Shown here: positions 33,901-61,538 of the stretch, piece by piece
How positions within the stretch are numbered: position 1 is the stretch's first letter
Layout: each line of letters starts with the position of its first letter
DNA from: a virus
Length of the DNA stretch: 64,000 nt
Reading direction: 5' to 3' (one strand)
Virus record (IMG/VR): IMGVR_UViG_3300013005_000031
Location: 20,013 to 84,012 of that record
Notes under the pieces: generated by a model
Told to the model about the DNA's origin: nothing
The model's database searches: none
Seen by the model: only the letters and a program-made list of their open reading frames with translations
Translations under genes and position numbers: made by a program

Positions 33901-36202
33901 TTTGTGAGTTTTTATACCAAGCCATTTCATCTTTACCATATTGACTATTTTTCCAATTTAATGGAACTCTATATTGCATTGCTAATTGATCATTATATGG
34001 AATAAGTCTATCTAATTCACCAGCTGGTCTATCAGAAGAATGACTAATCTCATGAACTAACATTTGTTTATTTCCAGGAAAAGATTGATGTATTGAAACA
34101 TTACCTGTATTACTATCAGATATTCCCCATGGGGAAAAGCCATATAAATCCTCAATCAATTTTACATTAGGATTTGTTTTATCAAAATCAATATCTAGTG
34201 CTGGGATAGTTTGTATATTTTTTTTTCTTAAATCTTTTATTTCTTTAAAAAGTTTTTGAGCATCTGAATCTGTTCTAGTTGATAATTTTGATGATTTCAT
34301 AAGCATTTTATCATGCATTGGAGAATCATGCCATTTATTTATCCAGGATAATGCTTTAGAAAAATCTGAACCTAATGGACTAACACTTACTTCTGGTTCA
34401 ATTTGCATGTTTGTTGCAACATCTGGATTTTCTAATAAGTATTGTGGATCAAGAGGTGCAAGTTTTCTATCAACTGGAACACAAGTTTCTCCATTCCAAT
34501 AGTGATATGGTGGACATTCCTCTTGTAAATTTTCTCCACCATCAAAAAATTTAGATAATCCTCCATACTTAAATGCTCTACCTTCTGCTTGTTTTTTCTT
34601 TGATTGCTCATACTGTTCAAGCCAAGTATCTAAATTTTTATCATACTCCTCATATTCTTTTTTATACTTCTGTTGATTCATTAAATCTCTTAAAGAAGCT
34701 GCTCCTCTAAATTCCATTTCAGAGCCAGTTGCATTGCCATAGTCTAATTCTCCAGGAACAAAGTTACCTTCTTCATCTTCATAACCTTCAAAATAATTTT
34801 TATCATAGCCTGTAGCTTTCTGTACTATTCTAGGAATTAACCTTGTTTTGTTTCTTTTACCTAGAGCAACATGTCCTTTACTATCTAATACACCTTTATC
34901 AAATAAAGCAGCAATTTTATTTTGTGGCAACTTAACATCTAGACTTAATCTATCAGCTGTGTATGGATCTAATGTATATTGTGGAGCTTCAATAGAATCT
35001 GGAAGAGAATAGTCATGTACCTGTAATTCTCCTAGATCTTTATTTTCTAATAAAGGAGGATCAATGATTGGTAATTCTATTGGTTCTACTTTTATATCCT
35101 CATAGATTGGATTTATAGTTTTAACATACTCACATTTTTTTCCAGTAACAGGAACTGTTTCTTCATCTGTCCCAACTAATTTTTTTCCAGAAGGTGCTTT
35201 CTTCGGTACATTATTTATAATAGTTGTTTTTGGTACACAAGGTTTAGGAGGGTTTTGAGATATTACAGGTTTTATAGGCTTTTTGTATTTAAATACTCTC
35301 CATGGTTGATTTCCTTGATAATGTGTAAATACTTTAACAGGACTAATATTTTGATAAGGATTTCCTGGCAATGCCCATGATCCAAATCCCTGATTCCTAC
35401 CTTGAAATTTACTTATTGCTGCAGATGGTATTTTATATTGTGGATTTTTTAAAACATTCATGAATTGATTATATGAATTATATAATGCTAAACTATCATT
35501 ATATGCTTGCATACGTTCTTTATGAGAAAGACCATTTTGTGCTTTGATCAACTCTCCACCATCTGCATAATACTTTGCATTAGGATCAAAGATTTTATTT
35601 TTTCTTGATTTAGGTTTAGAGAATAATGGATTTTGTGCAAAGAACTTATTGGTAGCTTCAAGGCTTCTAGAGTATGCTTTTGAGTTTTTCTTATTAGGAA
35701 TTTTAGGTCTCTTAGCAGAACCTCCCTTTTTAAAATTATCTGGACTTTCTAAGTCTTTAATATTATGATTATAATAGTTAGATGTTAGTTCTTCTCCAGG
35801 ATTTATATTTCTTTTAGCTAACATCAATATATGATCTCCATTATCTACTTCATATATATTTGGACTTTCACTATGATTGTAATAACCTCCTAGTTCTACA
35901 GATGGAAATGGTGCTTGATATTGCTCCCCATTTTTTGTAAAACTTTTTCTAATATGAGAAACACCTATGACATCATCTTTAGCAATTGGCTCTTGACTAA
36001 ATATACCTTTACCTTGTATTTTAGATGGGCCAACACTTAATGATTTAAATACAGGAGCATTGACACCATTCTCAGCACTTATTACATTATCACTTTTTTT
36101 ACTACCAGTTGTGTTGTTTGTATAAGCTTTGTTATACTTAGTAGCTGGTTTAGATTTATTTAAATTTCTAATTGCGTCTATTATTACTTTCTTATTGTAC
36201 AT
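30977..36202 (-). CDS. Giant multidomain virion protein: SET-like domain, zincin motif, beta-rich region, 1741 aa
   Basis: ATG at 36202, overlapping the stop of the 1827-residue gene by one base. Residues 53-148 read as a SET-like lysine methyltransferase domain: GKG at 64-66 (IQGKGIFS), NHSESPN at 109-115 and GEELTSNYY at 136-144. Then come linkers with KKGG and ADGG motifs and a CPPYHYWNGETC loop near residue 565. Residues 714-721 read MLVHEISH, an HExxH zinc-peptidase motif, with EVRSRL about 85 residues later as a possible third ligand. Residues about 900-1230 alternate hydrophobic and polar residues with many Gly and aromatics, like a beta-barrel. LTLSKKDIDKYVKGG at 1340-1354 looks like an ancestral protein end, followed by an unrecognised 390-residue domain ending in a similar tail. 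Individual motifs are visible; activities are inference. Confidence 0.75.
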   Translation of the reverse strand: MYNKKVIIDAIRNLNKSKPATKYNKAYTNNTTGSKKSDNVISAENGVNAPVFKSLSVGPSKIQGKGIFSQEPIAKDDVIGVSHIRKSFTKNGEQYQAPFPSVELGGYYNHSESPNIYEVDNGDHILMLAKRNINPGEELTSNYYNHNIKDLESPDNFKKGGSAKRPKIPNKKNSKAYSRSLEATNKFFAQNPLFSKPKSRKNKIFDPNAKYYADGGELIKAQNGLSHKERMQAYNDSLALYNSYNQFMNVLKNPQYKIPSAAISKFQGRNQGFGSWALPGNPYQNISPVKVFTHYQGNQPWRVFKYKKPIKPVISQNPPKPCVPKTTIINNVPKKAPSGKKLVGTDEETVPVTGKKCEYVKTINPIYEDIKVEPIELPIIDPPLLENKDLGELQVHDYSLPDSIEAPQYTLDPYTADRLSLDVKLPQNKIAALFDKGVLDSKGHVALGKRNKTRLIPRIVQKATGYDKNYFEGYEDEEGNFVPGELDYGNATGSEMEFRGAASLRDLMNQQKYKKEYEEYDKNLDTWLEQYEQSKKKQAEGRAFKYGGLSKFFDGGENLQEECPPYHYWNGETCVPVDRKLAPLDPQYLLENPDVATNMQIEPEVSVSPLGSDFSKALSWINKWHDSPMHDKMLMKSSKLSTRTDSDAQKLFKEIKDLRKKNIQTIPALDIDFDKTNPNVKLIEDLYGFSPWGISDSNTGNVSIHQSFPGNKQMLVHEISHSSDRPAGELDRLIPYNDQLAMQYRVPLNWKNSQYGKDEMAWYKNSQSKLEDEYMGEEEIPRDIYEQNKFDDWNNYLLSNKGSEVRSRLREIQFGADEQNIYDPFNKKITGRQFKQLDKKLLYSKPLNELRKTYSDKDIKWMLNNISKNDNETDDTIQYSKNGGAKKKDLPKASFGLPGTGKDRSLTFTPFDYRSAYGQASDFNRNPNYSLTYTTPNLFKKADLSANPLSFTLGRPYNTDAQSLTNRTLNFVPQEGLFSSYYDPALGGENNPKYQQYLQDVSNYTGTPVSELNQTIINQYNAAKNLAGAKPLYKKGIPLTANVGWDVFGNAFGDSSSGPFTGYGSLNVGYAPEPGFYGTADLGLMGVFGRRKNNAKISPQRYFDKGLTRQGDMAFIPKLNVLNFALRQRPEYNDIQTQNILNAYANDIEQGTKTAQGVINKTDEPRYDISFLSPEGTVQIKPFKDFPGVASFTGGLRLDYGGKDTMGDNIPITLKPYGNVRYTVPIEGAIDKLKDLNLPAIKRKKTYNDYAYDQDYDEEYTGDTPQEDTPTENNFEVNPPELQVNPNGTILGRGDCPEGYERPCPKCRCQKLKQPAVYTDKRGKHLFDNMSFKDGGSIELTLSKKDIDKYVKGGYIVEDISVPTLTRKEGGWPPKSGSGLIKIAEKVPGLIDKLPTGWEKNIKKFTRSNYNPFSLLAKEIGYDIASQSHRAGRYDTDIINAIKGSEKYPASYFGTGVMHGQTVPEHIRQLYGEGKRDLNRNYFFGDETGFEPTFYDFESDAGLQQAIDWYGPLKAYELFSEIKGGEDLSIKSLLANIPDESKTSGPLVDLMQGYKNDNLLTSDEFKTFYDPTTGKLKLVDASPYSPSEFEGLIKDNLNYLFDQYGQETIPFQVNANTTKEGELPFGFHLRRNPINPYDDIQGHMNFLKRLSKDKFSTVARDLWGFNRKAYMDKYSYEKNLSPWMVDAMDAFGKPMVLTQENPIIFKQYGGAFEYEVGDEIELDDLSKEELERLGYKLEEVK

Positions 36203-39200
36203 TACCTAAATGAATTTAAAGTTTTGTAATTGCTGAATTTCAATATCATGTTTATGTCATTACATTGATTTCTTTTTAAATTTAAGAAATTTAAGTAATG
36301 TCTGAATTTTTTTCTTTGTAATTCAGATTTATTATAATCCATGTTATTTGGATTTAATATTCTAGTGTATCCATCTGCTGCTGTTACCCAAGTATTTTCT
36401 GAAGCATAGTTACCTTGAAGTATAGTAGTTCCTGGAATTAAAGGTCCAGTAGGAGGATAGTTAGAATTAATTGGAAACTCATCTCTATCTCTTGTTATAT
36501 CCCAAAACTGATTGAATCTATATTTCTGTTCTTCTTTAGCAAATAGAATATCATAAGATGATAAGTTAGCACCTAACTTAGGATACTGTAATGATAGTAT
36601 AACATCATTCTTTGGATATAGATTTAGATTTAAATATCCGGAAACTTGTTCTGTATTATAAACAACAGCAGTATCAAAATTATAATCTAACACATGATGC
36701 TGGTCTATACAACTTCCTGAGTTTCTTCTATAACATTCCAATGCATACTCTACTGATCTTGTAGTCATTACTGCCTGACCTGTTACAATTGGGAATTCAA
36801 TCTCCCAACCAAACTGTTGACCATAGAAGTTACAGAAGTCATCACAGATATAATTATGTTTCCAGAAACCATTTTCCTTAGTACTTAAAAATATATCTTT
36901 TGTTGGTAATAATAAATCTGGATGCCAGTCATGGAAACTGATCCAGAATTTAGATTTAGGATCAAAGCTTAATGTCCAAGATGCATTTTCAAATAAGAAT
37001 GGGTCACCTAATAAAAATCTAGAGTTTTGATTATTATCTAAAATAAAAGCATCACCTGTACCATCAGGATTTATTGGAATATATTCTACTCTTCCTTTAT
37101 ATAGATCTTTTAATTTATAATCTTTCTTAGCAAAGTATAAAATGTTACTAGAGCTGTCATATGTTGATTGACATCCAATTCCTGCAACAGGATTATCCTG
37201 CCAAGGATAGCTAGGGAAATCTTCTGTTAATTGATATGGCATATATAAAATAAACCACCACTTTAATCCTGCCTGAGATATTTCTTCTAGTCCTTGACCA
37301 AATGTAAATACTCGTCCTTGGTTTTGAGACATATAGTATATACCCAATGGAGTTGATATAACAGATAGTCTGTTTTGTGATGAACCATATTCATATGCCT
37401 TATCTGCATTAGATACAGATTGTTGTGGCTGAGAAAATAATCCACCATCCCCAATAGTAATCTTAGTATTTAAATCTGTCTCAAGTGTATCTACACCTTG
37501 ATACATTAAAGGACTTTCATTTTTAAATGTAATGAATATACCTGATTTGTTAATTGACTTAACTCCAGAGATTTGCCCTTTAAATTCTTTATAGTTATTT
37601 ATAAGGTATATTGACCAGCTATCTTTTATTGCTTCATCTTGCTGAGGCAATGAATAAATAATCCTATCCGGTAAGTATGTATAACATAACTTAGATACTG
37701 CAGGATTATAGTATCTTGATTGTATGCTACCTGCTGAAAAATACTGGTTGTAAAGTTTTGACACACTCAATGAGTAATCATATATGTACTCACTAAGTTT
37801 ACCCATTATTGCTGGGTTCATGTCAAACATAGCAATATAATCTGTGTATCTATATGGATCATAATGCTTACCACCTTCTGCTATACTTTGTTTTCTAAAA
37901 TCTACAAGTACATCTGATTCTACAAAGAAATCTCTGATGCCAGAATTTGCTAAATAGAAGTATGCATTTCTTACAGAAAATAAACCTTCATACTTACCCA
38001 CACCTTGTGTAGTGTCTGTTGCATAATCATAATATCTATTTGAATTAACATAATAATCCATATTATAAAATGCAGTTGGCACAGGTCCTGTACCAGGAAC
38101 AGAAGGTCCACTGATGTTTATTAATTCTGATAGATATCCAACATCATAATTTATACTGTTTACTTTAAATCTTGCATTTGGAATCATAGAATATAAATAG
38201 TAGTTATATTCAAAACCATCTGGCTGATCATATAACCAATTGTAAAAGAACATCATGTTGTTCTTCTCAGTGTATCTATTTATATATGTATCTCCCCCAA
38301 ATACAATTGGTGTTCTTTGTATAGTTTTAAACTGATATGTTATTTGGTCTATTGGACATGTCCATGGAATAGGTTGTAAGTTATAATCAGATAATTTTTG
38401 TTCACAAGAAGTTACAGCAATTTGATATTCACTACCTAGTTGACCATATTGATTTCTAACTCTGTATTTTAATGCTCCATAATGACTTGCAATAGGTAAA
38501 CTAAAAGATGTATCAAAGTTTTCAAAAGTTGGTAGGGTAGAGTTAATAAATGCTGAATCAGAAGAATTTTGTACAACAGTTCCTAATGTAACTAATGATT
38601 TATCTCTTATACCTGTAGTAATTAAATTAGGGCCAATGCTTACTCCATCAGGATATGCTAAATTGTAATAAGGTCCAGATTTAGTACGAACAGTTATTAT
38701 ATCTGATCTTTTTAAATTATTAATTACATAACTAAAATACTGACCAAACTGATTTTGATACTTAGGAACATTTTGCAAATTATCTCTAACGTAAAAATTA
38801 TCTTCAATTGAAAATCTTTTTAACTCAGACTGACCAATTTTTATCATGTTACCATAATACCCATGTGCAACAGACTGAAGTGCATATTGTCTATATGGTG
38901 TTATAGCATAAAATATTCTTAGTGTTGCTTCCGCACCTTCTGAAAAATAATATGAAATTTGATTTAATCCTCCAATTGCTCTAGTAATTGGATCAAGATA
39001 AGCATAGCTTGGCATTTCTACTAAACCTTGTTGAACAATTGGTGTTAATCCTGTAGCTCCACTTGTAGCATTTAGTGTGTTTATAAATAAATTTTGAGCT
39101 TGAGCATAAGATGTATCAGGGTAACCATTTGGACCAATAGGACCTGGATTAATCATAATTAATGCATCAAGAAAAGCATTACCACTTGAATAATAGTTGT

Positions 39201-41685
39201 CTAAAAAGTTTTGATAGATACTTACAGGAGAAGTTGCTGGTGTTGGTAGTGTAGTTAGTGCTGTAAGTGCTGCAATTTGAGATGCATCGGTATTTCCAGA
39301 AATTAATCTTTGTAAGGTAGCATTTAAATCTGGTTGATTAATTGTTCTCTTACCTAATAAAGATACTAAAGCTTCAGCTACTCCAACTACTATCATAGCA
39401 GCAACTACAGCATCACTTAACAATTTAAATTGTGGATGGTCACTAGGATTTTGAAAATTTAAATCTGCATAACCATTTAATGTTCCATATAACTTAAACT
39501 CAGATGTTGATAGATATGGTGATCTAAACATTGTATCTGGTGAATGAAATGTAAAAATATCTGTAGGTATAGTTTGATTGTAAAGTACAGTTACCGGAGG
39601 AATAATTTCTTCATTTTTAATATATGGATCATTATATAAAAAATTATGATCTGATGGGTTTAAAGAAGCTCCTATTGGAACAATTGTATTAAATGGGTAA
39701 TTTGCATAGAGCCCGGTTTTATTTTGTGCAAGTGCACTTTTATTTTCATAGCTTCTAAAATTATTAACCATCCCTTTGGCAATAATTGTTTTATTACCTT
39801 CTCTAGATCCTCTTAAAATTTCATAACCAACAATACCTGGAATATCATTACCATCTTGATCCTTTGGCAATATAATATTTTCAAATACTACTCCCATAAT
39901 TCTTATGTAGAATTCATCCCCTGAAGTAGTACTGTTTGGATTTGGTCTAAAGTGCACAGCATCTGTAGATGCATTGTTATTAATAAAATTTTCTGGGAAT
40001 CTATGATGCCTAATATTTTTACCACATAGATCAAAAGCACCTTCAGTTTGTCCAACTTGCACTTGTGCTGCAGGACCAGTCCAACAATAATAACTAGAAT
40101 TCCATATGTCAGGTCTTTTTTCTGGATATGTTTCATCTGATTGCCAATATCCCATTTCTCCAATAGCAAGTAAAGTACCTCCATCTGGTAATACCCATTG
40201 ACCATTTACAAGTGTTGCTCCCGGAAGAGTTGCTGGGTATAACAATTGTGTTGCTGTATTATATACTTCAAATACACTGTCATCTGTTGCTAATGCATTT
40301 TGATCATGAGTTACTAAAAAATTATCTGCCTCATTCATTACTATTCCACCAGGTATTTGAAAGTTCCTAGGAGCTCTTCCTGGAATATGATAAGAAGCAG
40401 ATTTATCTCCAGTGTCATATACCCATCTTATGTAAAAGGTATATACTTCATCTCTAAGATAATTTGTTTTATTGCCACCCTTTATATAATAATCAGCTGG
40501 ATATTCAACACTAGCCCATCTTGCTTGAATCATATTTGCAAGTGGTTGATAATTAAAATCAAATCTAGATCTTGGACCAACTCTTAAAAGATAATTATTT
40601 ACATCTGTCATTTGATCAGATGTTTCATATACTGGAGTTGTAATAGGTAATTGCTCTAATGGAATTTTTACAAGACTAGGGTTAATTAAATCTAATTCTA
40701 TTCTAGAAGTTTTAGTTGAGTAAAATCCAATTTGATAACCTACTGTTTGTTGATTTACAGTAGCAACAAGAACTAAAACAAACTCATCAAAGTTTTCAGA
40801 ATCTGCATCTACAGTTAATGTTAATGAACCTTCTATATCTCTAACATTATAAATAAATTGATTATTACTTTGTGAAAAGAAATCTGTAACTCTTTGACCT
40901 TTTATTGTATATGCTATTAGTGCAAAGTAAGTTCCATTAGATAATGTTCCACCAGATTGTCCCAATGTTAAGTTAAGACATGGTGTTTCCATCAATCTAG
41001 CTAATCTTGTTTTTGGACAATCTAATCTATTAATATTATTACAAAATTCACATGGTGTTGCTGGTGTACATTTTTCTTCCCAATGAACTCCTGGCCATAA
41101 GAAAGTTGTATCAACTCCATTAGAATAATAATTCATTGTTGCTGATGTGCCACCTAGCCATGAGTAATCTGGAGTTGGCCAAGTTCTAGGGTCACCAATA
41201 TTTAAAAATCTATCAGGATTAAATCCATCAGCCCAGTATACTTGCCAAGAACAATCTTCTTTTTCTCTTGATGATCCAGATATAAGATATCTTTTGTCAA
41301 AGTTTAAACAAGGGTCCTGAACTATCTCTCTATATTTACATACATCTTCTTCTAATAATCCTATTTCTGATGTAATTCTTTTACCTGTATTATCATGTCC
41401 TGCAGTAAAAACAACCCACTTGTCAGAATATAAATAAATAGCACCGATGATATATTTTTTAGTTACAGTAAGAGGCATTGATGTTCCTGTTGCTGAGCAC
41501 AAGAAATTTGATGTCTCATTTGATAATGTTCCTATGTCACCTTCAATTGTATTGTTTACAGCATTTACTGCATGCGTCCACATACCCTCTGACACAAATG
41601 AAGGGTCAGAGTCTTTATTTAAACCTTTAATAAAAGAGCTTGTGGTGACCTTACCAGTTTCTTGTAAACCTTGTTTCTTTGCCAT
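36202..41685 (-). CDS. Tail muzzle/stabilization-type protein, 1827 aa
   Basis: ATG at 41685, stop at 36202. The N-terminus (SSFIKGLNKDSDPSFVSEGMWTHAVNAV, where SxxxGLNxDxxP is the recognisable core) and the following beta-rich blocks (IGAIYLYSDKWVVFTAG; DEVYTFYIRWVYDTG) match the long stabilization or muzzle protein of crAss-like phages, which forms the distal end of the short tail barrel. The sequence is almost entirely beta-type, with many aromatics, Asn and Pro, and has a cysteine cluster near residues 205-235 (CTPATPCEFCNN, then CPKTR). It follows three probable connector/ring genes and precedes the cargo genes, the order expected for this family. No enzyme motif seen. Identification rests on resemblance and position. 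Confidence 0.75.
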   Translation of the reverse strand: MAKKQGLQETGKVTTSSFIKGLNKDSDPSFVSEGMWTHAVNAVNNTIEGDIGTLSNETSNFLCSATGTSMPLTVTKKYIIGAIYLYSDKWVVFTAGHDNTGKRITSEIGLLEEDVCKYREIVQDPCLNFDKRYLISGSSREKEDCSWQVYWADGFNPDRFLNIGDPRTWPTPDYSWLGGTSATMNYYSNGVDTTFLWPGVHWEEKCTPATPCEFCNNINRLDCPKTRLARLMETPCLNLTLGQSGGTLSNGTYFALIAYTIKGQRVTDFFSQSNNQFIYNVRDIEGSLTLTVDADSENFDEFVLVLVATVNQQTVGYQIGFYSTKTSRIELDLINPSLVKIPLEQLPITTPVYETSDQMTDVNNYLLRVGPRSRFDFNYQPLANMIQARWASVEYPADYYIKGGNKTNYLRDEVYTFYIRWVYDTGDKSASYHIPGRAPRNFQIPGGIVMNEADNFLVTHDQNALATDDSVFEVYNTATQLLYPATLPGATLVNGQWVLPDGGTLLAIGEMGYWQSDETYPEKRPDIWNSSYYCWTGPAAQVQVGQTEGAFDLCGKNIRHHRFPENFINNNASTDAVHFRPNPNSTTSGDEFYIRIMGVVFENIILPKDQDGNDIPGIVGYEILRGSREGNKTIIAKGMVNNFRSYENKSALAQNKTGLYANYPFNTIVPIGASLNPSDHNFLYNDPYIKNEEIIPPVTVLYNQTIPTDIFTFHSPDTMFRSPYLSTSEFKLYGTLNGYADLNFQNPSDHPQFKLLSDAVVAAMIVVGVAEALVSLLGKRTINQPDLNATLQRLISGNTDASQIAALTALTTLPTPATSPVSIYQNFLDNYYSSGNAFLDALIMINPGPIGPNGYPDTSYAQAQNLFINTLNATSGATGLTPIVQQGLVEMPSYAYLDPITRAIGGLNQISYYFSEGAEATLRIFYAITPYRQYALQSVAHGYYGNMIKIGQSELKRFSIEDNFYVRDNLQNVPKYQNQFGQYFSYVINNLKRSDIITVRTKSGPYYNLAYPDGVSIGPNLITTGIRDKSLVTLGTVVQNSSDSAFINSTLPTFENFDTSFSLPIASHYGALKYRVRNQYGQLGSEYQIAVTSCEQKLSDYNLQPIPWTCPIDQITYQFKTIQRTPIVFGGDTYINRYTEKNNMMFFYNWLYDQPDGFEYNYYLYSMIPNARFKVNSINYDVGYLSELINISGPSVPGTGPVPTAFYNMDYYVNSNRYYDYATDTTQGVGKYEGLFSVRNAYFYLANSGIRDFFVESDVLVDFRKQSIAEGGKHYDPYRYTDYIAMFDMNPAIMGKLSEYIYDYSLSVSKLYNQYFSAGSIQSRYYNPAVSKLCYTYLPDRIIYSLPQQDEAIKDSWSIYLINNYKEFKGQISGVKSINKSGIFITFKNESPLMYQGVDTLETDLNTKITIGDGGLFSQPQQSVSNADKAYEYGSSQNRLSVISTPLGIYYMSQNQGRVFTFGQGLEEISQAGLKWWFILYMPYQLTEDFPSYPWQDNPVAGIGCQSTYDSSSNILYFAKKDYKLKDLYKGRVEYIPINPDGTGDAFILDNNQNSRFLLGDPFLFENASWTLSFDPKSKFWISFHDWHPDLLLPTKDIFLSTKENGFWKHNYICDDFCNFYGQQFGWEIEFPIVTGQAVMTTRSVEYALECYRRNSGSCIDQHHVLDYNFDTAVVYNTEQVSGYLNLNLYPKNDVILSLQYPKLGANLSSYDILFAKEEQKYRFNQFWDITRDRDEFPINSNYPPTGPLIPGTTILQGNYASENTWVTAADGYTRILNPNNMDYNKSELQRKKFRHYLNFLNLKRNQCNDINMILKFSNYKTLNSFR

Positions 41686-41687
41686 AA

Positions 41688-42734
41688 TTATACAACTTGA
41701 ATGCTTCTTGCGTTTCTATAATAAGGATTGTTAGGTGAATAACTTTGGAACATTGTATAATACTTACCATACATAGCTTTTCTGTTTGTCCACCACATTT
41801 TTTCCATCTCTTTAAAGTTTGGTGTGTTAACTAAACTGAGTGCTTGATTTCTTGCAGTCTTAAGTCTTTGTTCTATCAATTGCATTCTTTGTGCAACATC
41901 TTCACCATTTAAATATAAGTTTTCAAAGATCCTTGACTTTAGTGCATACTCATAATATTCATTTAAAAGATCATGATCTGGAACCATTAAATTCCCTTGG
42001 TCATCTTCCATTTGACCTTGATAGTTTAAATAAACTTTTCCTGTTTCAAATGTTGTAAATAAAAATCCTCCTTTAATCCAACCTTGATTGTTTGTGTTGT
42101 AATAAAGATTTGGGCAGTCACATTCTATTTCTTGACTTGCCTTCATTCTTAATGGAATTAAATCAGTATACACTCTTGTTGTTCCTGTATTGTTCATTAC
42201 TTGAACTAGTTCCCATTTCTCCCCTTTACAGTTCATAAATACTCTTGGAGCAATACAAGTATTACCATAAGGATTTAATGGATCATAAGCTGTAGGTATT
42301 GGGTCTACTATAGGATGATTAAGGTCACATGCTGCAGTTTGATTACATGGATGAGAGTTACATGTTCTACAGTTCACTGTTGGTGGAGCACATACATCTA
42401 TAGTAGATGGTACTTCTTGATAAGGTACTTCTACTATTGTTGTTCCACCTGAAGCTGCATCATACCCTAGACGCTCTACATAGTTACCACAAATAAATGC
42501 AAAATTAAATGTGTAAAAATCATCAGGCAGTTTAACTTTATTGTGACATACATCTAGTATGATTTCTTTTTGCTGATTGATTCTTAAACCTAAATCATAG
42601 TTTATTTTTTTGGTAAGTTTAATAAGCTGTTGTGGCTCTATTAAATTTTCTAAAGCAAAAGTATTTAAGTCAACTGTTACATCTTCTAACAATTGGTCAA
42701 ATGTTCTGTATCTAAGAGTATAATTAAAATCCAT
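41688..42734 (-). CDS. Probable tail ring/connector protein, 348 aa
   Basis: ATG at 42734, exactly overlapping the last base of the stop of the preceding 221-residue gene, which suggests translational coupling. The N-terminus (YTLRYRTFDQLLEDVTVDL and QLIKLTKKINYDLGL) is helical and followed by a beta-rich core. A cysteine-rich insertion lies near residues 115-160 (CAPPTVNCRTCNSHPC), and the C-terminus is a long basic helix region ending in YYRNARSIQVV. Lying directly upstream of the muzzle-type gene, it is a good candidate for one of the ring proteins that build the crassvirus tail barrel. No direct motif proves this. The Cys cluster is unusual for a ring protein and may be a metal-binding or disulfide-closed surface loop. 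Confidence 0.55.
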   Translation of the reverse strand: MDFNYTLRYRTFDQLLEDVTVDLNTFALENLIEPQQLIKLTKKINYDLGLRINQQKEIILDVCHNKVKLPDDFYTFNFAFICGNYVERLGYDAASGGTTIVEVPYQEVPSTIDVCAPPTVNCRTCNSHPCNQTAACDLNHPIVDPIPTAYDPLNPYGNTCIAPRVFMNCKGEKWELVQVMNNTGTTRVYTDLIPLRMKASQEIECDCPNLYYNTNNQGWIKGGFLFTTFETGKVYLNYQGQMEDDQGNLMVPDHDLLNEYYEYALKSRIFENLYLNGEDVAQRMQLIEQRLKTARNQALSLVNTPNFKEMEKMWWTNRKAMYGKYYTMFQSYSPNNPYYRNARSIQVV

Positions 42735-49108: not shown

Positions 49109-50773
49109 TTAGATTCCACACTGAGCTGGAAGAGCTGGGAATGCAATTGCTAAGCAATTTGAAAGACAAGCAAATGTCTCAATGTTACAGTCATTATCAC
49201 AGTTTGTTAACCATGTGGTTACTGCAGCTTCAAATGCTGTAGCGGTAGTAGAATCAGTAAAGATAACTTCTAATAGGTATTGATCATTGTCAAATGTACC
49301 AGTTGGATTATTAAATCTTGGAACACTATGTTGCAAGTAATCTCTATAGTAGAGTGCTTGTCTGTTGATAGCATTTACAATTTGGTTACCTTGAGTGATC
49401 TCCCGGATTCTGAAATCAGAAGAGAAGAAATTTTGTCTGTAAGACTCAGAAAGAATAATATCTCTAAGAACTGACTCACCAAGACCCATTGCTTGAGATC
49501 CTAAACACTCATTAACTACACAAAGACCTGTAAATTCACATGGATCACCATTTAAGTCTACTTCACTTACATGTAAATCAACTGGTTGTTTCTCATAGAA
49601 GTCAGAAATTTGGAAAGTACAATCTCCAAATCTAGTATCTACATAAGCACCATTAAGGATCAAACCTGCACAAGCATTAGTTGTGTGTCCTGGAGATACA
49701 TAATTATCCCAAGTATCAGCACCTTCAGCAGCTAAGAAAGTAGCATCTGTTCCTGGAGCATACCAAATAACACCAGTCTCATCTTGAATAGCAATCTGAA
49801 TGAATGGAGATACAATTGGAGAGTTTAACAAGTCATTAGCCCAAAGGATCATTACTTCAGTAGAATCTACTGGAGTTGGAGCAATAGTTCCTGCAGGACA
49901 ACAACCAGTATAAGCAGTTGCAGTATAGTATGCATTGTGATTTAAGAATCTCAAAGCTGGAGAACCTTTAACATCTAAACGAAGATTATAAGTCTCACCA
50001 CATAAAAACTCTTTACAACAATTTGTTCCAGGGATAACTGGATCAATTGCAGGAGTAACAAATACAATAGTGTATACAGCAAGAGTACCAGGTGTTCCAG
50101 AAGGAGAATTAATTGTTACAGTATCACCAACTTCATAACCCTTACCAAGACTTGCAATTCCTGTTACAGTTGGTACACCAGCAGCAATTGTAATAAACAA
50201 TGTAAGACCAGTACCAGTACCTGATGTAGTTACTGTATCAACAACTACAGCTGTTGCAGAGTTAGGTGCATATCCAACACCTGGAGTAGTAACAGAACCA
50301 GTTGTTACACCACCACCTAAACTAGAATAAGTAGAACCAACGTGTACTACATTGTTAGATGGAGGACAAGAATCTACACCATAAAATCTAGATACATATC
50401 TAGGATTGATTAATTTAGATTTGTTAGTCTCTTGGTATCCACCTAAGAACGGACTAATTTTGTCCTCACAGTAGATTGCAGAACCTACTAAGTAAAGTGG
50501 ACAACATGTAGTTAAATCTCCAGTAGATACAGAAACCATATTTTTTGTAAATAATCCAACATAATTGTTAGAGTAATTACCTTGTGAAATAGTTGCTGCT
50601 GCAGCCAACTGATTCATAACAATAGTTGGTAAAAGAGAAGATGCAGTACTCAAAAATCCACCAACTGCTGTTGCTGGACCAAGAGATGCACCAGCTGGAT
50701 TTGTAGCTGTTATGGTAATATCATCACCAGTAGCTAAAAACGTTTTCTTAAACGCATGATTAAAATAAGCCAT
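49109..50773 (-). CDS. Probable major surface or tail structural protein, 554 aa
   Basis: ATG at 50773, stop at 49109. It has its own candidate promoter region (66-base AT-rich leader) and its own terminator, the layout expected for a highly expressed virion protein. Residues 1-140 are mixed; residues about 165-240 form a Gly/Thr/Val-rich insert with GVGYAPNS and GKGYEVGDTVTI, a beta-type domain common in phage surface proteins. Several cysteine pairs follow (NCCKEFLC, GCCPAG, CDNDC). The C-terminal helical part (ESVLRDIILSESYRQN) looks like an assembly interface. Could be a head decoration, tail-tube or sheath-like protein; the sequence does not settle which. Confidence 0.55.
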   Translation of the reverse strand: MAYFNHAFKKTFLATGDDITITATNPAGASLGPATAVGGFLSTASSLLPTIVMNQLAAAATISQGNYSNNYVGLFTKNMVSVSTGDLTTCCPLYLVGSAIYCEDKISPFLGGYQETNKSKLINPRYVSRFYGVDSCPPSNNVVHVGSTYSSLGGGVTTGSVTTPGVGYAPNSATAVVVDTVTTSGTGTGLTLFITIAAGVPTVTGIASLGKGYEVGDTVTINSPSGTPGTLAVYTIVFVTPAIDPVIPGTNCCKEFLCGETYNLRLDVKGSPALRFLNHNAYYTATAYTGCCPAGTIAPTPVDSTEVMILWANDLLNSPIVSPFIQIAIQDETGVIWYAPGTDATFLAAEGADTWDNYVSPGHTTNACAGLILNGAYVDTRFGDCTFQISDFYEKQPVDLHVSEVDLNGDPCEFTGLCVVNECLGSQAMGLGESVLRDIILSESYRQNFFSSDFRIREITQGNQIVNAINRQALYYRDYLQHSVPRFNNPTGTFDNDQYLLEVIFTDSTTATAFEAAVTTWLTNCDNDCNIETFACLSNCLAIAFPALPAQCGI

Positions 50774-50839: not shown

Positions 50840-51298
50840 TTATTTTAAGAAAAGTAATTTATACTTTCCAGAGTTAATAGTATCTTTTACTGTATCTAAT
50901 GAGTTTACAATTTCTGAATAAGGCATTTTAGCTTGTAAGGTATTTATCATTTGATACATATCTCTTAGGTAAGCAATACCTTCTTCAACTGTATTTAAAG
51001 TTCTTGGTGCAGATTCTTTGTAATCAAGAAGTTTTTCTGAAGCACCTTGATATCCTTCTGCAAGATCATCTGCATGACCAGGAAGAGCATCATATAATTC
51101 ATTCAATGCTTTGTGTGCAGCATATGATCCTGCACCTTTTACTTTTAAGTGTAGTTTGTGAATACTAGTTGCAGCATTCATTAATTCTGATACACAAGCT
51201 GCAGTCATTGTATCACAATTAGCTGATCCAGCAGAAGGCGCACTTGAGTAAGATGCTGATGTCATTGCATCTCTTTTTAACATTCTAGGTTTTTCCAT
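50840..51298 (-). CDS. Dps/ferritin-like four-helix protein, 152 aa
   Basis: ATG at 51298, stop at 50840. The helical sequence SIHKLHLKVKGAGSYAAHKAL followed by GHADDLAEGYQG resembles Dps/ferritin-like proteins (and the phage DUF5856-type family). The ferroxidase ligands of Dps are spaced H-x11-H-x14-D-x3-E; here H50, H62, D77 and E81 keep exactly that spacing, though the additional Asp four residues after the second His is Asn66. The first 35 residues are Ser/Ala-rich and probably flexible. The gene is between a connector-type gene and the 554-residue structural gene. It may be a virion component, or protect or condense DNA; iron oxidation is a testable inference. Confidence 0.7.
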   Translation of the reverse strand: MEKPRMLKRDAMTSASYSSAPSAGSANCDTMTAACVSELMNAATSIHKLHLKVKGAGSYAAHKALNELYDALPGHADDLAEGYQGASEKLLDYKESAPRTLNTVEEGIAYLRDMYQMINTLQAKMPYSEIVNSLDTVKDTINSGKYKLLFLK

Positions 51299-51301
51299 TT
51301 T

Positions 51302-52003
51302 TTAGTTGTTTCTTTCTGCAGTTTCTTGTGCTCTAGAGAACTGGTTTCCAGATTCTATATCTCCAGCTAAAATACTTACTGCTTCATCAATTAGTAATTC
51401 TATTATATCATCTTTAAATTCACATTCTACATTTACTGTAGATTGAACTCCTGTATAAGGATCTGTGCAACCTTGAATTTGTATCTTTCTAGGTTGTCTA
51501 TAGTATGTAAGTTCTACCTCTGGGATGTTAAATTCACCATTAGTGTAGATATTAATACTGTCATTTATTAAAGTAGCAAATGTTTCTGCCCACTCAAAGC
51601 TTGGTTTTTTTAATGCGTCTCTAAGAAGTATAGATACATTACCTTCTTCTGCAAGATATATTACCATTCTTCTTTTATTACAACAATCTCTTTGAGCAAA
51701 TACATCTACTCTTTTCCACTGTAGATAATTTCCGGGAATACTTAAAAAAGAATAATCCCCTTTATCTGTTAAATTAGTTATAGTAGTTTTATTAAGAAGA
51801 ACTTGTAAGTCATCTTTTCTCCGGGTAGATTGCTCATCACCTTCTTTTACTACATTGATACCATGAAGCTGTCTTCTAGCCCATTCTACTTGAGCCTTAT
51901 TAAAAGACTCAACTACTTGCCAGCAGGTTATGTTATCATAATCCTGACTATCAAGCTTATTCAGCCTTTGTTTCATCTTTATGGTAATAGTACTATTTAA
52001 CAT
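51302..52003 (-). CDS. Probable head-tail connector/ring protein, 233 aa
   Basis: ATG at 52003, stop at 51302. An N-terminal helix (KQRLNKLDSQDYDNITCWQ, VVESFNKAQVEWAR) leads to a beta-rich middle (YSFLSIPGNYLQWKRVDV; VELTYYRQPRKIQIQG) and a final helix (IIELLIDEAVSILAGDIES). This helix-beta-helix layout with a terminal LxxxAxxxLxGDxE-like helix is typical of small head-tail adaptor or ring proteins in tailed phages. It follows the capsid genes and the small basic gene cluster. Assigned by pattern and context only. Confidence 0.6.
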   Translation of the reverse strand: MLNSTITIKMKQRLNKLDSQDYDNITCWQVVESFNKAQVEWARRQLHGINVVKEGDEQSTRRKDDLQVLLNKTTITNLTDKGDYSFLSIPGNYLQWKRVDVFAQRDCCNKRRMVIYLAEEGNVSILLRDALKKPSFEWAETFATLINDSINIYTNGEFNIPEVELTYYRQPRKIQIQGCTDPYTGVQSTVNVECEFKDDIIELLIDEAVSILAGDIESGNQFSRAQETAERNN

Positions 52004-52006
52004 TTT

Positions 52007-52618
52007 TTATTTTCTTTTTCTTTTATTAGAGCCACCTCTCTTATATAACTTCATTCCAGCTCCTGTATCCTTATCTACAGCAGCATTTTCAGACCTTCTC
52101 AGTGCACTATTTACATCAATATCTTGATCATTCCAATTAATATTTTTTCCCTCATATTTAACAGTTCCATTTTTACCCGTTAAATTTCCATATTCTTTAT
52201 TTCTTTTTTGAACAAATTCATCACTTGATCTTGCCAAATTTTCAAGTCTTTCTCTTGCTGCTTGTTGTTTTTGAAGTTTAGTATACCCTTTGGCATTTGG
52301 ATCAGGATTATAATAACCTCTTCCTGGCATTTGTTTTGATCCACTATCTTCAGATAAGAATGGACCATTCCAAGAATCTTTTGTTGTTAATGGATATTGT
52401 TTATCCATATATTTTGAATCTTCTTCATTCAAAGGACCTTGATATACATTTCTAATACCTCTTTCTTGTAAAGTTGGTATACCATATAAACCACCACCAT
52501 TATCTTTTTTAGGTAATGACTTCTTATACTTAGACATTTCTCCACCAGCTTTCTTAATAGCAGCAGCTTTAAGATTATTAAAGTGAGTAAGTGGATTTAC
52601 TTTATTATTTTTTTTCAT
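52007..52618 (-). CDS. Basic protein with GG and LPK motifs, 203 aa
   Basis: ATG at 52618, stop at 52007. The N-terminal module (NPLTHFNNLKAAAIKKAGG, then YKKSLPKKDNGGG) is one I recall from small proteins of many environmental phages: a basic helix with KKAGG followed by SLPK and a double glycine. The rest is Asn/Asp/Gly-rich without recognised domain and ends in KLYKRGGSNKRKRK. It shares the LPK and [KR]xGG signals with the giant cargo proteins. Probably a virion protein; function unknown. Confidence 0.6.
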   Translation of the reverse strand: MKKNNKVNPLTHFNNLKAAAIKKAGGEMSKYKKSLPKKDNGGGLYGIPTLQERGIRNVYQGPLNEEDSKYMDKQYPLTTKDSWNGPFLSEDSGSKQMPGRGYYNPDPNAKGYTKLQKQQAARERLENLARSSDEFVQKRNKEYGNLTGKNGTVKYEGKNINWNDQDIDVNSALRRSENAAVDKDTGAGMKLYKRGGSNKRKRK

Positions 52619-52620
52619 GA

Positions 52621-52977
52621 TTATTTATTTTTAGCCATTTTTTTAAATGTTCTAGCAAGAGCTTTTCTCTTAGGTGTACATGTAGGTTTAGACATAGGAG
52701 TACAGTAACCTTTATGTTTAGGGTTTACTGCTTTTTGAATCCACTTCTTATCTGTTGCTCCACCTTTTTTAGCTTTATAGATTTGTGGTTCTTTAGCCAT
52801 TGGTGGTTCATCAATTTGAATTGATGGTTTATTAACACCTCTCAATACTCCTTTAAGTGTTCTTGTTTCTTTAACACTTTCAGGTGAGCCATATCTTTTT
52901 TTAACTACTGTTTTGTAGTTACCATCTGGAGAATAAAACTTTTGTTTTGCTTCTCTTGGACTTTTTTTATCAGGCAT
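52621..52977 (-). CDS. Small basic protein with CTPM/TCTPKRKA motif, 118 aa
   Basis: ATG at 52977, stop at 52621. The C-terminus (NPKHKGYCTPMSKPTCTPKRKALARTFKK without the final residues) is a motif that recurs in small phage proteins and in some large eukaryotic virus proteins, from memory, always near basic ends. An AKKGG motif precedes it. The N-terminal part is basic and polar. The family is known to me only as conserved and uncharacterised; nucleic-acid binding or packaging with DNA is plausible from its charge. Confidence 0.6.
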   Translation of the reverse strand: MPDKKSPREAKQKFYSPDGNYKTVVKKRYGSPESVKETRTLKGVLRGVNKPSIQIDEPPMAKEPQIYKAKKGGATDKKWIQKAVNPKHKGYCTPMSKPTCTPKRKALARTFKKMAKNK

Positions 52978-53022
52978 GACTTTACTTTTTTACTTTACCT
53001 TTTCCTCTACAGCTACACATGA

Positions 53023-53373: not shown

Positions 53374-53389
53374 AATTACATATATTAAA

Positions 53390-53897: not shown

Positions 53898-53899
53898 GA

Positions 53900-54136: not shown

Positions 54137-54138
54137 AA

Positions 54139-54477: not shown

Positions 54478-54479
54478 TA

Positions 54480-55805: not shown

Positions 55806-57422
55806 TTATAGAGAGCCACCAGTAACTGGGTTTCTCATAACAATTTTCAAGACTTTAGTTGGATCTTTAACCCAAATAGCTGGCATTGTTTGAGACATCA
55901 TTACACGGTAACCATTGAATTGTCCAGAAGACTGGAACCCTTGAGTTCTACCCATGTAGTCCATAGTACCATTTTGATACCACCACTTCAATTGGTTGTC
56001 CCAAGAAAGTTTCAATAAGAAGATATTATCATTAGTGTTATCAGTGATATCAAAGATAATGAATGAGTAAGAAGATAATGGGAAACCATCAATGATTGGG
56101 TTCTCAATATCATTTGTATGAACATTGTCAAATGCTGGGTTAAGAACAAACTTAACATTTGCCAAGAATGGAATTACATATGAAGTATAAGCAAATCCAA
56201 AGTTCAAGTCCATACCTTTACCAGTGATAGCACCAATATCAGCAGCCTGAATTAATAAACCTGATGCAATAGCTTCTTGTCTAATGGCCTCATTAACCAT
56301 TCTCATTCCACCCATACCAGTTTGTACAACCAATGATCTTTTTGGATCTGGTCCTTGGAACTCAACCTTACCATTGAAGAAGTTATAGATTTCTCCACGG
56401 AATAAGTCAAGAGTAAAGTTATTTTTGTTGTATACTCTTTTGAACGCATTGTTCAACTGTTGCCAAAGTCCAGTAGAAAGTCTGATGTCATCTGGTCCAT
56501 CTTGCTTAACTCTACCACCTTGTCCCCACATTAAGTAAGTCTCAATGTCACTTGCAATTTTAGTTAAGTGAGCAGCTTCCATTTGAGTTAAGAAAGTTCT
56601 AGAAAGATCTCCATTATCAAATGCTTTTTTAACTTTATCCTTACCTAAAACTTTTACCATATCTTCTAAAGATGTGATAGAAGGATCATTAGTAGCACCA
56701 AAGTTTCTCCAGATCTCAGTTACAGGAACTGTACCATCTGCATTCATACCACCTTTGATCATTAAATCTGCTCTTGAAGAAACTGAATAATGTACGTGAG
56801 CTTCAGCACCACCAACAAAGTTGTAGTACTCACGGAAACCAGTTCTTGTAGTGATGTCAGAGAATCTTTCACCATACTCACCTCTTGCAGAACCTTTTCT
56901 AAAGAATCTAGTTCCATTGTTTAAGTATGAGTTATCCAAGAATTTAGTGTTGTCATTGTTCACAAGTTGAACTGTGTAAACATAACCATCACCTAATGGA
57001 AGAATATCTTCATCTGTAATGTACATCTCAACCCCATTATATTTGTCATAAGTGATGATATCACCATGTCCAAACTCTCTGCGGCTTAATTTAATTCTAA
57101 AGGTTGTTCCATCAATACCTTTGAAAGTATTAAGTGGTTCAATATCCTCAAGAATGTATGGAAGATCTGTAGAGACAGGAGTCTGCCACTTATACTCTCC
57201 ACGAGCATTATCTACCATAATTACATTTTTCCCACCAAAACTTGACATTTGGTAAAGAGGCATTTCTACCTTTTGAGACATAGCCCAAAGGTCAACTGGA
57301 CCTAAATCCATAGGTTCAGCATCTTTTAGCATGTTTACCAAGTGGTAAGAATCCACATGGGAACTTGCATTGTAAGCGGTATCCCGAAGGAATATACCAT
57401 TGTTTAAAATTGGAGTTGCCAT
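55806..57422 (-). CDS. Major capsid protein, 538 aa (crAss-like, HK97 fold expected)
   Basis: ATG at 57422, stop at 55806. Length and pattern fit crAss-like major capsid proteins: N-terminus with DTAYNASSHVDSYHL, then PVDLWAMSQKVEMP, YKWQTPVSTDLPYILEDIEP, HVHYSVSSRADLMIKGG, and a C-terminal half with beta blocks (GFPLSSYSFIIFDITDN; WWYQNGTMDYMGRTQGF). It is preceded by the scaffold-like gene and followed by a strong terminator, the usual layout for the most abundant virion protein. The HK97 fold is family knowledge and not visible directly. Confidence 0.9.
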   Translation of the reverse strand: MATPILNNGIFLRDTAYNASSHVDSYHLVNMLKDAEPMDLGPVDLWAMSQKVEMPLYQMSSFGGKNVIMVDNARGEYKWQTPVSTDLPYILEDIEPLNTFKGIDGTTFRIKLSRREFGHGDIITYDKYNGVEMYITDEDILPLGDGYVYTVQLVNNDNTKFLDNSYLNNGTRFFRKGSARGEYGERFSDITTRTGFREYYNFVGGAEAHVHYSVSSRADLMIKGGMNADGTVPVTEIWRNFGATNDPSITSLEDMVKVLGKDKVKKAFDNGDLSRTFLTQMEAAHLTKIASDIETYLMWGQGGRVKQDGPDDIRLSTGLWQQLNNAFKRVYNKNNFTLDLFRGEIYNFFNGKVEFQGPDPKRSLVVQTGMGGMRMVNEAIRQEAIASGLLIQAADIGAITGKGMDLNFGFAYTSYVIPFLANVKFVLNPAFDNVHTNDIENPIIDGFPLSSYSFIIFDITDNTNDNIFLLKLSWDNQLKWWYQNGTMDYMGRTQGFQSSGQFNGYRVMMSQTMPAIWVKDPTKVLKIVMRNPVTGGSL

Positions 57423-58793: not shown

Positions 58794-61538
58794 TTATTTT
58801 TCTTTCTTTGGATTGCCATCATATTTGTTTTTGTTTTCCTGTGCAATTTGTAGTTGTTTCTCTGCAATTTCCCTTTCTGTCTGAAGTCTTTCTCTTTCTA
58901 TCTGGTTCTTCTGGTTCTCAATAGTCATTCTATTTACTTCTTTTTCTCTTTGAAGTCCAGTTTGTTCTTGATACTGTTCAGTCTCTCTAATATCTTTCAT
59001 TGCATCTCTATAGTCAGACATTTGATTTTGATCAACATCTGCCGTAGCTCCATAACCTGCAGCTCTAATTTCAGCAACCAAGATATCTCTTTGTCTGTTT
59101 TTCTCATTTTCAGCAGCAACAGAATCAATCTTCATTTGCTCAATCTCTTGTTGTTTTTGAAGTTGTTCTTGTTGCATTTGCTGTTGCTGTTGCATTTCTT
59201 GTTGTTTCTGCTGTTGTTGTTTTTGTTCAGAATCCTTAAGAACAACATTAAGAGCAGCAATAGAGTCTGACTGAACAACTTTACCTAGATCAAAAATAGA
59301 TGCGCCTGTAGTATTATTTTGAATTGCCATTTGCTTTAACTGCTCAAGAATAGCTCTATGATTTGCATTAGTACTAATAGCAATATTAAGATCTCTAAGT
59401 AAAAGATCAGTACCGTTAATTTCAAAGTTTACTTTCTCATCTGCAGAAGTAATATAAGTTAATCTAGCAGATGGTTTAGTAGAATGATAGTATTGAGCTA
59501 AGTCAGTTCTCATCTGATGCACCCTAGGCATTAGATAATCACAATGCTGAATAAAGAATATTTCTGTTTGAGCATAAGATGCTTGCATTGCCTGTTCTAC
59601 TCCGGTAGCAGTTGATTGAGATAATTGTTGCCCCATTCTTTGAGGGTTAACTCCAATTACTTCATATGCTTGTTGTTTAAAGTAGTTAGCTAAATTTATC
59701 CTAGACATTAATCTATTTGTTTGTTCTAGATCTAGTTTTTGGAAGTGTTGGAAGTTTAATGCATTCTCTGTATTTGTGATAGATGTATCTAAAGGAAGAA
59801 TCTGGAAATTCTTCATTGCTACATAAGCTTTAGCATAATTACCTTTACCCCAATCTTCACCTAATGAATGTCTTGGTAAAGAGTTTTGATCAAGCATGAT
59901 TACTGTACCAAGCTCATCAATTAATATATCTGCAATCTGATTGTTTACAATGTTATATCCAATCTGGTATGGCTTCATTAAGTCAATAAGTGCAGTAGAC
60001 TTAGTATTTCTATCTGAGAATACAGATCCTTCTACAGGAAGTTTACATCCATATAAATTAGAATCTCCTTTAAACTGAAACTTAAGTGGGCCAATGTGGT
60101 TTCTATTTACACCAATATAGATAGGTGAGAATCCACCTGGGTTATTCATACCCCAGAATGAAGGTACATTTGGTCCTATTTTTACTCCACCCCATACCTC
60201 ATTAATCCAGATCCAATCTATATGCTCTCCAAAAAGTAAATTATCTTTTGTTTTATTTTTAAAGAGTCTAGTATCATATATTGGTTTATCTGTTATCTTA
60301 TAGTCTTCTGTAACTATATCATTACTTACTTCACCTTCTTCTGTGATCTTTACAAGATGTCCAACTTTTCTTTGTGACTTCCAGTATGCTTGAGTTACTC
60401 TAAGTAAGTATGCCGTACCTTGATCATAGTAATCTTCACCCTGAGAAAGTATCTGAGTAACAACATCTGCTCCATCTAATACATTACCAGACATGAAAGA
60501 TGTGTATTGTCTATATGCAAGAGATGGCATATTAGTATTCCATTCATGTGTTTTTGTACCATCATAGAATGAACCATCATTTTGTAGACCCCCAATATTA
60601 TATCCAGCAGATCTAATTGGATATACAGACTCTAGAGCCTCATGTTGTTCTGTAGTAAGTAAGTGTCCAAATTTATCAATTACATCTGACACAGTGTACA
60701 TATCTGTTTTACCTACCCAGTTTCCTTGTGAGGTATATCTAACATCTGGAGACTTGTGATAGAATGTTAAAAGTGGATTCCATAATTCTACATCATAGTC
60801 ATCTTCCATCATGTGAAAATGCCAGAACTCTCTATCAGTAATAAGCATATCTCTAAATGCTCTTTCCTCAAGTTCATCCATTCTAAATCTTTCTACATCT
60901 ACTTTATGCTGATGTTCTGCCCACTGCTCTACCATTGAACGGTAATCTTTTTTGAAAAACTGTTCAATCTCTGGTAAAGTTTTTAAATTTTCAGGCTGTA
61001 GTTGTTTTGTGGCTTCTTCTGAATTTGGATCTAAACCTTGTTCAAGCATAGCTGCTAACATTTTAGTTGCAGCATCTGCCATTAAAGTTTGCTCAACCAT
61101 TCCTCTTTTTTGCTCAAGCATCTCATTGTAAGAGAAATCATCAATGGCTCTATAGGTAAGTCTAGTAGATCTTTTAGCAAATTCAGCTACTAGTACATTA
61201 ACAACATTGGGTATAATAGGATAAAACTTTAGTTCAAGGGCTGATACATCTTCTTTGGTTAATACCTCTATAATATCTTTATACTCATTATCCTCTTCAA
61301 AAATATAGTCAGATCTATCAATTACCCCTTTTGCAAGTTTATAGTTTTTTAGTAACCGTCTAGCATTTCTTCTTATTTGTTTTAATCCTTGCCATTCTAA
61401 CCAGTCTAAGTTCCAGGCAGCCCATTCTTCAGTTTTATCTTTTTTAGGTAAAAACTGTAATGGTTGGGTAATACTACCTAATCTATTCTGTTCTGTTTTA
61501 GCTCCTTTCTTAAGTTGTAATGCGTTATATACTTGCAT
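58794..61538 (-). CDS. Portal protein, 914 aa
   Basis: ATG at 61538, stop at 58794, 6 bases after TerL. The region of residues 40-760 shows the mixed alpha/beta layout of portal proteins (WAAWNLDWLEWQGLKQIRRN at the start; later NYFKQQAYEVIGVNPQRMG and QSTATGVEQAMQASYAQTE, which resemble portal stem and wing helices). The C-terminus (residues 770-914) is a Gln-rich coiled coil with near-pure Q/K/E stretches, probably the barrel or a tail that reaches into the capsid. Length fits crAss-like portals. It forms the DNA channel at one capsid vertex and binds TerL during packaging. Confidence 0.9.
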   Translation of the reverse strand: MQVYNALQLKKGAKTEQNRLGSITQPLQFLPKKDKTEEWAAWNLDWLEWQGLKQIRRNARRLLKNYKLAKGVIDRSDYIFEEDNEYKDIIEVLTKEDVSALELKFYPIIPNVVNVLVAEFAKRSTRLTYRAIDDFSYNEMLEQKRGMVEQTLMADAATKMLAAMLEQGLDPNSEEATKQLQPENLKTLPEIEQFFKKDYRSMVEQWAEHQHKVDVERFRMDELEERAFRDMLITDREFWHFHMMEDDYDVELWNPLLTFYHKSPDVRYTSQGNWVGKTDMYTVSDVIDKFGHLLTTEQHEALESVYPIRSAGYNIGGLQNDGSFYDGTKTHEWNTNMPSLAYRQYTSFMSGNVLDGADVVTQILSQGEDYYDQGTAYLLRVTQAYWKSQRKVGHLVKITEEGEVSNDIVTEDYKITDKPIYDTRLFKNKTKDNLLFGEHIDWIWINEVWGGVKIGPNVPSFWGMNNPGGFSPIYIGVNRNHIGPLKFQFKGDSNLYGCKLPVEGSVFSDRNTKSTALIDLMKPYQIGYNIVNNQIADILIDELGTVIMLDQNSLPRHSLGEDWGKGNYAKAYVAMKNFQILPLDTSITNTENALNFQHFQKLDLEQTNRLMSRINLANYFKQQAYEVIGVNPQRMGQQLSQSTATGVEQAMQASYAQTEIFFIQHCDYLMPRVHQMRTDLAQYYHSTKPSARLTYITSADEKVNFEINGTDLLLRDLNIAISTNANHRAILEQLKQMAIQNNTTGASIFDLGKVVQSDSIAALNVVLKDSEQKQQQQKQQEMQQQQQMQQEQLQKQQEIEQMKIDSVAAENEKNRQRDILVAEIRAAGYGATADVDQNQMSDYRDAMKDIRETEQYQEQTGLQREKEVNRMTIENQKNQIERERLQTEREIAEKQLQIAQENKNKYDGNPKKEK

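Follow-up and report, generated by a model that had tools for sequence, protein, structure and literature searches.

Computational evidence for recurrent replacement of a Dps-like DUF5856 protein by classical ferritin in one gene slot behind a phage tail ring-type gene

Ferritin-superfamily proteins in phages and the locus analysed

Encapsulins are HK97-fold shells that carry ferritin-superfamily cargo by means of a short terminal peptide. Encapsulated ferritins have been described (PMC5012862). Dps-like and ferritin-like genes of phages were known before this work, but they are scattered and mostly unassigned. In gut phages, Dps-like genes were described as protective enzymes (PMC8008677). 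Two other crassviruses carry Dps-like proteins: crAss001 gp7, annotated as 'putative DpsA' and encoded among tRNA genes outside the tail block, and cr108_1 gp_22597, encoded between capsid and tail genes. The text of the crAss001 virion atlas makes no mention of Dps or ferritin. Mass spectrometry of virions of the Vi01-like phage Sajous1 revealed a 'ferritin', gp217 (PMC10892097). Family DUF5856 (phrog_858) includes T4 RI.-1 and phiR1-37 g280, the latter annotated as a phage structural protein. The phrog_858 label 'starvation-inducible transcriptional regulator' (e.g. T4 rI.-1, L268:1320-1706) is probably a transferred Dps name, and no regulator function was found for phrog_858 relatives in the papers examined. 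Dps-like phage relatives, such as T4 RI.-1, crAss001 gp7 and the virion 'ferritin' of Vi01-like phages, were thus already known, and the stronger result of the present analysis is the exchange of proteins in one slot. In a limited search of open papers, no description was found of a slot behind a ring gene in which Dps-like and ferritin proteins alternate.

The window, a stretch of 64,000 nucleotides, is part of an 84,012-base IMG/VR virus record. Matches to crassvirus families were obtained for its capsid, portal, ring 1 and muzzle proteins, and the virus is therefore classified from its predicted proteins as a crAss-like phage. In a DNA-level comparison no phage record was matched by the virus, and among isolates and named records Leptolyngbya phage Lbo-JY46 has the most similar capsid (28% identity). 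An earlier note on this DNA had placed a Dps-like gene in a virion gene cluster; the gene does sit within the tail/capsid block, between the capsid and muzzle genes, and begins 3 bases past a ring-type gene. The genes concerned are:

58794..61538 (-): portal protein; matches crAss001 portal gp20 structures, 2.6e-23
55806..57422 (-): major capsid protein; Crass_capsid PF23898, 1.8e-31
51302..52003 (-): crassvirus tail ring-type gene, upstream of the Dps-like ORF; phrog_29507 virion structural protein, 2.6e-12
50840..51298 (-): DUF5856 Dps-like protein, 152 aa, stop codon included; PF19174, phrog_858, AlphaFold bundle, dN/dS
49109..50773 (-): downstream gene, 554 aa, no assigned function; next gene in 78 loci and placed behind the slot in almost all relatives
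41688..42734 (-): tail ring protein 1; CrAss_Ring_1 PF24228, 5e-11
36202..41685 (-): muzzle protein; crAss_MUZ PF25731, 5.8e-30

For the ring-type gene at 51302..52003, the match to CrAss_Ring_3_4 was weak and sub-threshold (0.053). The capsid-to-ring interval (52007-54692, -) holds a series of small, mostly very basic Lys/Gly-rich ORFs, among them DUF6321 (53390-53671) and DUF5872 (54139-54477).

Ligands, family and predicted fold of the Dps-like protein

The earlier note had recognized the spacing of the Dps iron site in H50-x11-H62-x14-D77-x3-E81, with Asn66 in place of the additional Dps aspartate. Both observations were borne out in the 152-aa ORF at 50840-51298 (-). N66 corresponds to the fifth Dps ligand position and replaces the middle Asp of the full Dps set H-x11-H-x3-D-x10-D-x3-E, which is therefore incomplete. 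The motif H-x11-H-x14-D-x3-E was found once among the window ORFs of 50 aa or more (35,798 aa in total) and arose in 38 of 200,000 shuffles of the protein, that is, with a chance of approximately 2e-4 from composition alone. As judged from the aligned sequences, conservation of the ligands among relatives is far stronger support for the motif than these shuffle odds. H50, H62, D77, E81 and G85 were invariant in 192 distinct relatives; H47 (191/192) and D135 (190/192) are further signature residues, omitted by the earlier note. Position 66 varies freely (N 79, Q 63, G 24, R 23, E 2, A 1), so that Asn instead of Asp is ordinary for DUF5856; the matching residue of T4 RI.-1, read from its sequence, is Asp. 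The H-x11-H spacing is not general either, and many DUF5856 relatives have a shorter loop, H-x8-H. Among crass-clade relatives dN/dS was 0.02-0.29, which indicates purifying selection.

The protein is a member of DUF5856 (PF19174: 7e-15, 56.3 bits, gathering cut-off 34.6), as are all 72 aligned relatives, and matched phrog_858 with 2.2e-21. By contrast, the Ferritin family PF00210 gave 0.0057 and 17 bits, below the gathering cut-off of 24.5, and three Dps models scored far below their cut-offs (NF006975, 16.2 against 114 bits; NF052461, 17.8 against 300; NF041388, 13.9 against 170). Thus, the earlier description as Dps-like holds for the fold and four of the five ferroxidase ligands at Dps spacing, but not for the family, which is DUF5856, nor for the fifth ligand, which is absent. 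The HxxH of the window protein occurs also in NAP of Helicobacter pylori and in Listeria-type Dps, and a long N-terminal tail is common to Dps, including that of Escherichia coli, and the window protein. Compared with bacterial ferritin of the FtnA type, with which it shares a superfamily, its ligand pattern is of the Dps and not of the ferritin type. With T4 RI.-1 and phiR1-37 g280 it has in common a score above the family cut-off and the invariant H, H, H, D, E, G and D columns; unlike other DUF5856 proteins, its clade has a longer basic tail, a fixed place behind the ring gene, Asn66, and H-x11-H where many others have H-x8-H. The proteins crAss001 gp7 and cr108_1 gp_22597 match DUF5856 weakly and differ from the window protein by an Asp at the fifth-ligand position and by having no HxxH, as read from their sequences.

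Sequence searches of the PDB pointed in the same direction. The best matches of the single protein were Dps proteins (E approximately 0.003), and with a 72-sequence profile H. pylori NAP was matched at 5.3e-5, most matches being Dps. When DUF5856 was compared directly, profile against profile, with E. coli Dps or with an alignment of six Dps proteins, only the core from HxxH to E81 was covered (P approximately 0.004-0.008). Helix D is unreliable in this alignment and hence no role is claimed for D135.

AlphaFold, run with the 72-sequence alignment, predicted a four-helix bundle with a mean pLDDT of 89 and 94-98 in the core. The predicted elements are:

51218..51298 (-): N-terminal tail, residues 1-27 (MEKPRMLKR... 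plus linker); low pLDDT; basic tag common to slot ferritins
51143..51217 (-): helix A, residues 28-52; H47 (51158-51160), H50 (51149-51151)
51038..51127 (-): helix B, residues 58-87; H62 (51113-51115), N66 (51101-51103), D77 (51068-51070), E81 (51056-51058)
50927..50989 (-): helix C, residues 104-124
50849..50917 (-): helix D, residues 128-150; near-invariant D135 (50894-50896)

The best 50 PDB fold matches of the model were all Dps or ferritin with a probability of 1.00; their TM-scores to the query were mostly 0.5-0.7 and their E-values modest (0.005-0.02). A fold other than a four-helix bundle had been named as an outcome that would speak against the Dps reading, and the Dps/ferritin-type bundle that AlphaFold returned agrees with that reading. 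Computation thus shows a four-helix Dps/ferritin fold for the DUF5856 protein at the level of a predicted model. Residues 88-103 of the model form no helix, so that the short BC-loop helix of Dps appears to be absent, a point of low weight in a prediction. In Dps, the ligands come together across a two-fold axis. With H62 close to the beginning of helix B and D77/E81 towards its end, the ligands of the window protein could likewise meet only between chains.

Relatives are numerous: searches yielded 253 candidate stretches with the window protein and at least 596 with one podovirus member. The cellular genomes searched contained no relative of the window protein. In a first alignment of the whole DUF5856 family, no segment was sufficiently conserved to be used for scanning a collection. 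DUF5856 is absent from Lbo-JY46, the nearest crass-like isolate by capsid, and from phi14:2, Fpv1, csAssE-Sib, cr7_1, phi17:2, cr55_1, cr130_1 and ProJPt-Bp1, and is hence not a crassvirus core gene. In two podovirus groups it lies right behind the head-tail adaptor (phrog_332, 16/16 loci, L172-L187) or the portal gene (phrog_156, 56 loci, L188-L267). The idea that DUF5856 is always linked to virion genes was rejected, since a P19250A-type group and T4-like phages carry the gene elsewhere.

Because T4 RI.-1 clearly belongs to DUF5856 (5.1e-34) and its gene adjoins rI, the lysis-timing function proposed for it has to be considered for the window protein. According to the account of Golec et al. 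2010 in PMC6832632, over-expression of T4 RI.-1 slightly extends lysis inhibition. This effect is small and comes from over-expression, however, rI and rI.1, the T4 neighbours, do not lie near the window gene, and RaK2 has a homolog yet lacks the T holin and RI (PMC3622015). A lysis-timing accessory is therefore extremely improbable here.

The slot behind the ring gene

Relatives were re-fetched by the capsid gene, which gave 35 loci with enough downstream sequence. DUF5856 directly followed the ring gene in 34 of them. The exception, L325, encodes in this slot a classical ferritin of 204 aa (L325:15043-15654; PF00210 1.6e-24, 86.9 bits against a cut-off of 24.5; PDB ferritin 1.7e-22), which starts MEAKPRSLKRP, while the window protein starts MEKPRMLKR. 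A search with this ferritin yielded 57 loci, and in 38 ferritin stood directly after the ring gene (slot ferritin loci: L325; L377-L397, L400-L403, L405-L415, L417, L424). Three of these (L390, L391 and L396) have the slot ferritin and then DUF5856 in tandem. Viewed from DUF5856, the ring-type gene precedes it in 79/80 loci fetched by DUF5856 and in 34/34 fetched by the capsid protein. In a broader sample of 69 assessable loci fetched by the ring gene, the slot held DUF5856 in 47 cases and ferritin in 8, and was empty in 14. Slot content was ignored in choosing the capsid- and ring-fetched samples, and each is biased towards its own query. In view of the empty slots, an essential slot protein was rejected; the slot is accessory.

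One relative has neither DUF5856 nor ferritin and encodes in the slot a low-complexity protein rich in Lys and Arg (L459:4233-4973, MPNPRKRADRITARQEVN...). When cellular genomes were searched with the slot ferritin, one match was obtained, a ferritin with 66% identity on a 5.5-kb contig of a Tissierellales MAG (L518), possibly a phage contig binned with that MAG.

In a ring-protein tree of 110 sequences, 11-12 changes between ferritin and DUF5856 were counted by parsimony, at least 5 of which are forced by well-supported branches. A FastTree ring tree that included empty slots (147 sequences) gave 25 changes, at least 11 of them for ferritin; the trees behind both counts are of short proteins and have many weakly supported branches. 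The clearest and most direct case of slot replacement is the pair L393 (ferritin) and L301 (DUF5856), whose ring genes are 91% and following genes 89% identical and whose slot genes are unrelated. Taken together, the computation shows recurrent replacement of DUF5856 by classical ferritin in one slot, which is very likely selected for ferritin-type metal chemistry, probably for iron handling. At one fixed locus of an abundant phage clade, two folds with shared chemistry were switched while the neighbours and often the tag were kept. The swap is natural evidence that ferritin-type iron chemistry, and not a particular structure, is under selection, and it suggests a likely metal function for DUF5856, the family of T4 RI.-1.

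These data bear on whether the ferritin fold was repurposed as a structural accessory of tail or capsid, the metal site merely stabilizing the dimer interface. That the gene lies beside a ring or portal gene in three phage groups unrelated to one another, and that one ferroxidase ligand has been lost, would fit such a part. On the other hand, the 14 empty slots have otherwise intact flanks, the slot is also filled by classical ferritins retaining their own ferroxidase-type residues, and folds that assemble differently can hardly exchange a structural interface. One would expect a structural part to be indispensable and tied to one fold family, which favours an accessory iron-binding protein and makes the structural role unlikely. 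A link between Dps dodecamers and dodecameric tail rings was dropped because the symmetries differ.

Within the first 20 residues, a [PR].LKR-type motif was present in 92/112 DUF5856 proteins and 15/30 ferritins of the slot. Outside the slot it was found in 0/131 DUF5856 proteins and 0/16 ferritins, and the other ORFs encoded at the same loci gave 0/2,431. As the pattern was defined after viewing the sequences, the evidence lies in this contrast and not in the absolute rate, and half of the slot ferritins do not have the tag in its strict form. By this comparison of predicted proteins, many members of both fold types carry a basic N-terminal tag that is specific to the slot. The stop of the ring gene and the start codon of the slot gene are separated by a median distance of 4-5 bases, and 5'-end recombination, rather than function, may have preserved the tag. 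The tag codons vary mildly, in AT-rich DNA, and this variation makes selection on the amino acids likely.

In a wider interpretation, the crassvirus particle would be an encapsulin-like iron compartment, whose HK97-fold capsid or tail loads interchangeable ferritin-superfamily cargo by a recognized N-terminal tag. In contrast to encapsulin, the phage is filled with DNA, the tag is N-terminal and basic, and packaging is putative. We consider this interpretation speculative and rather doubtful.

Possible role of the slot proteins

Common to DUF5856 and the slot ferritins are ferritin-superfamily metal chemistry and the tag, which favours an iron-binding, probably ferroxidase, role. We see about an even chance that the window protein, a phage-specific Dps-like DUF5856 member in an accessory ferritin slot found in a large clade of crAss-like phages, serves as a putative iron-oxidizing virion cargo docked by its tag. 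The slot protein would be produced late, together with the tail proteins. Its chains may pair across a two-fold axis as in Dps, H50/H62 of one chain meeting D77/E81 of the other, and Fe(II) would be bound and oxidized at this inter-chain site, possibly with peroxide. The tag would dock the protein to the particle or to packaged DNA, and as accessory cargo it might keep iron and peroxide off the genome and the redox-sensitive virion. Alternatively, it may act on iron as infection starts.

Packaging of the putative cargo in the virion is favoured. The phiR1-37 annotation, the Sajous1 'ferritin' and the adjacency to portal or adaptor genes in podoviruses provide indirect support for virion association, while T4 rI.-1 and the P19250A-type copies outside structural genes count against it. 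Vi01 encodes a DUF5856 protein and has no PF00210 match, and we infer that gp217 of Sajous1 is the DUF5856 protein. These phages differ from the virus studied here in being contractile-tailed Ackermannviridae with no ring-gene slot or tag.

The same copies outside virion genes, like crAss001 gp7 among tRNA genes, would be expected if the slot protein were a cytosolic Dps or ferritin, co-transcribed with tail genes but never packaged, which stores iron and removes peroxide in the host, its basic tail binding phage DNA in the way that host DNA is bound by the tail of E. coli Dps. Such a function was proposed for gut-phage DPS and Mn-catalase (PMC8008677), and the evidence from fold, ligands and swap also fits it. 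It leaves unexplained the constant place directly behind the tail ring gene in this clade and the slot-specific tag common to two fold families, and phiR1-37 g280 is annotated as structural. A cytosolic protein is a possible explanation, to which we give limited credence.

Tail-borne iron has also been proposed to mimic a siderophore-iron complex and thereby exploit host iron-uptake receptors. This 'Ferrojan horse' idea (Bonnain et al. 2016) was applied to Vi01-like phages with a ferritin-like protein in their preparations (PMC10892097), and the slot does lie within the tail operon. However, Vi01-like phages infected tonB and feoB mutants as well as the wild type (PMC10892097), and a ferritin core is internal and not displayed, making this mechanism very unlikely for the slot proteins. 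The slot makes testable the old question of whether phage particles carry iron proteins, for which virion cargo is the reading we favour.

Two further features of the window lie beyond the muzzle gene. The 1,741-aa ORF that follows it (30977-36202, -) has a SET domain close to the N-terminus (residues 66-143, PF00856 1.9e-8), which is unexpected in a giant crassvirus protein near the muzzle gene. The region 8809-30977 (-) contains five very large ORFs of 1,052-2,413 aa with no match to Pfam or PHROGs, 8809-16050 having been compared with PHROGs only and the other four with Pfam only; they are possibly ejected cargo or polymerase proteins.
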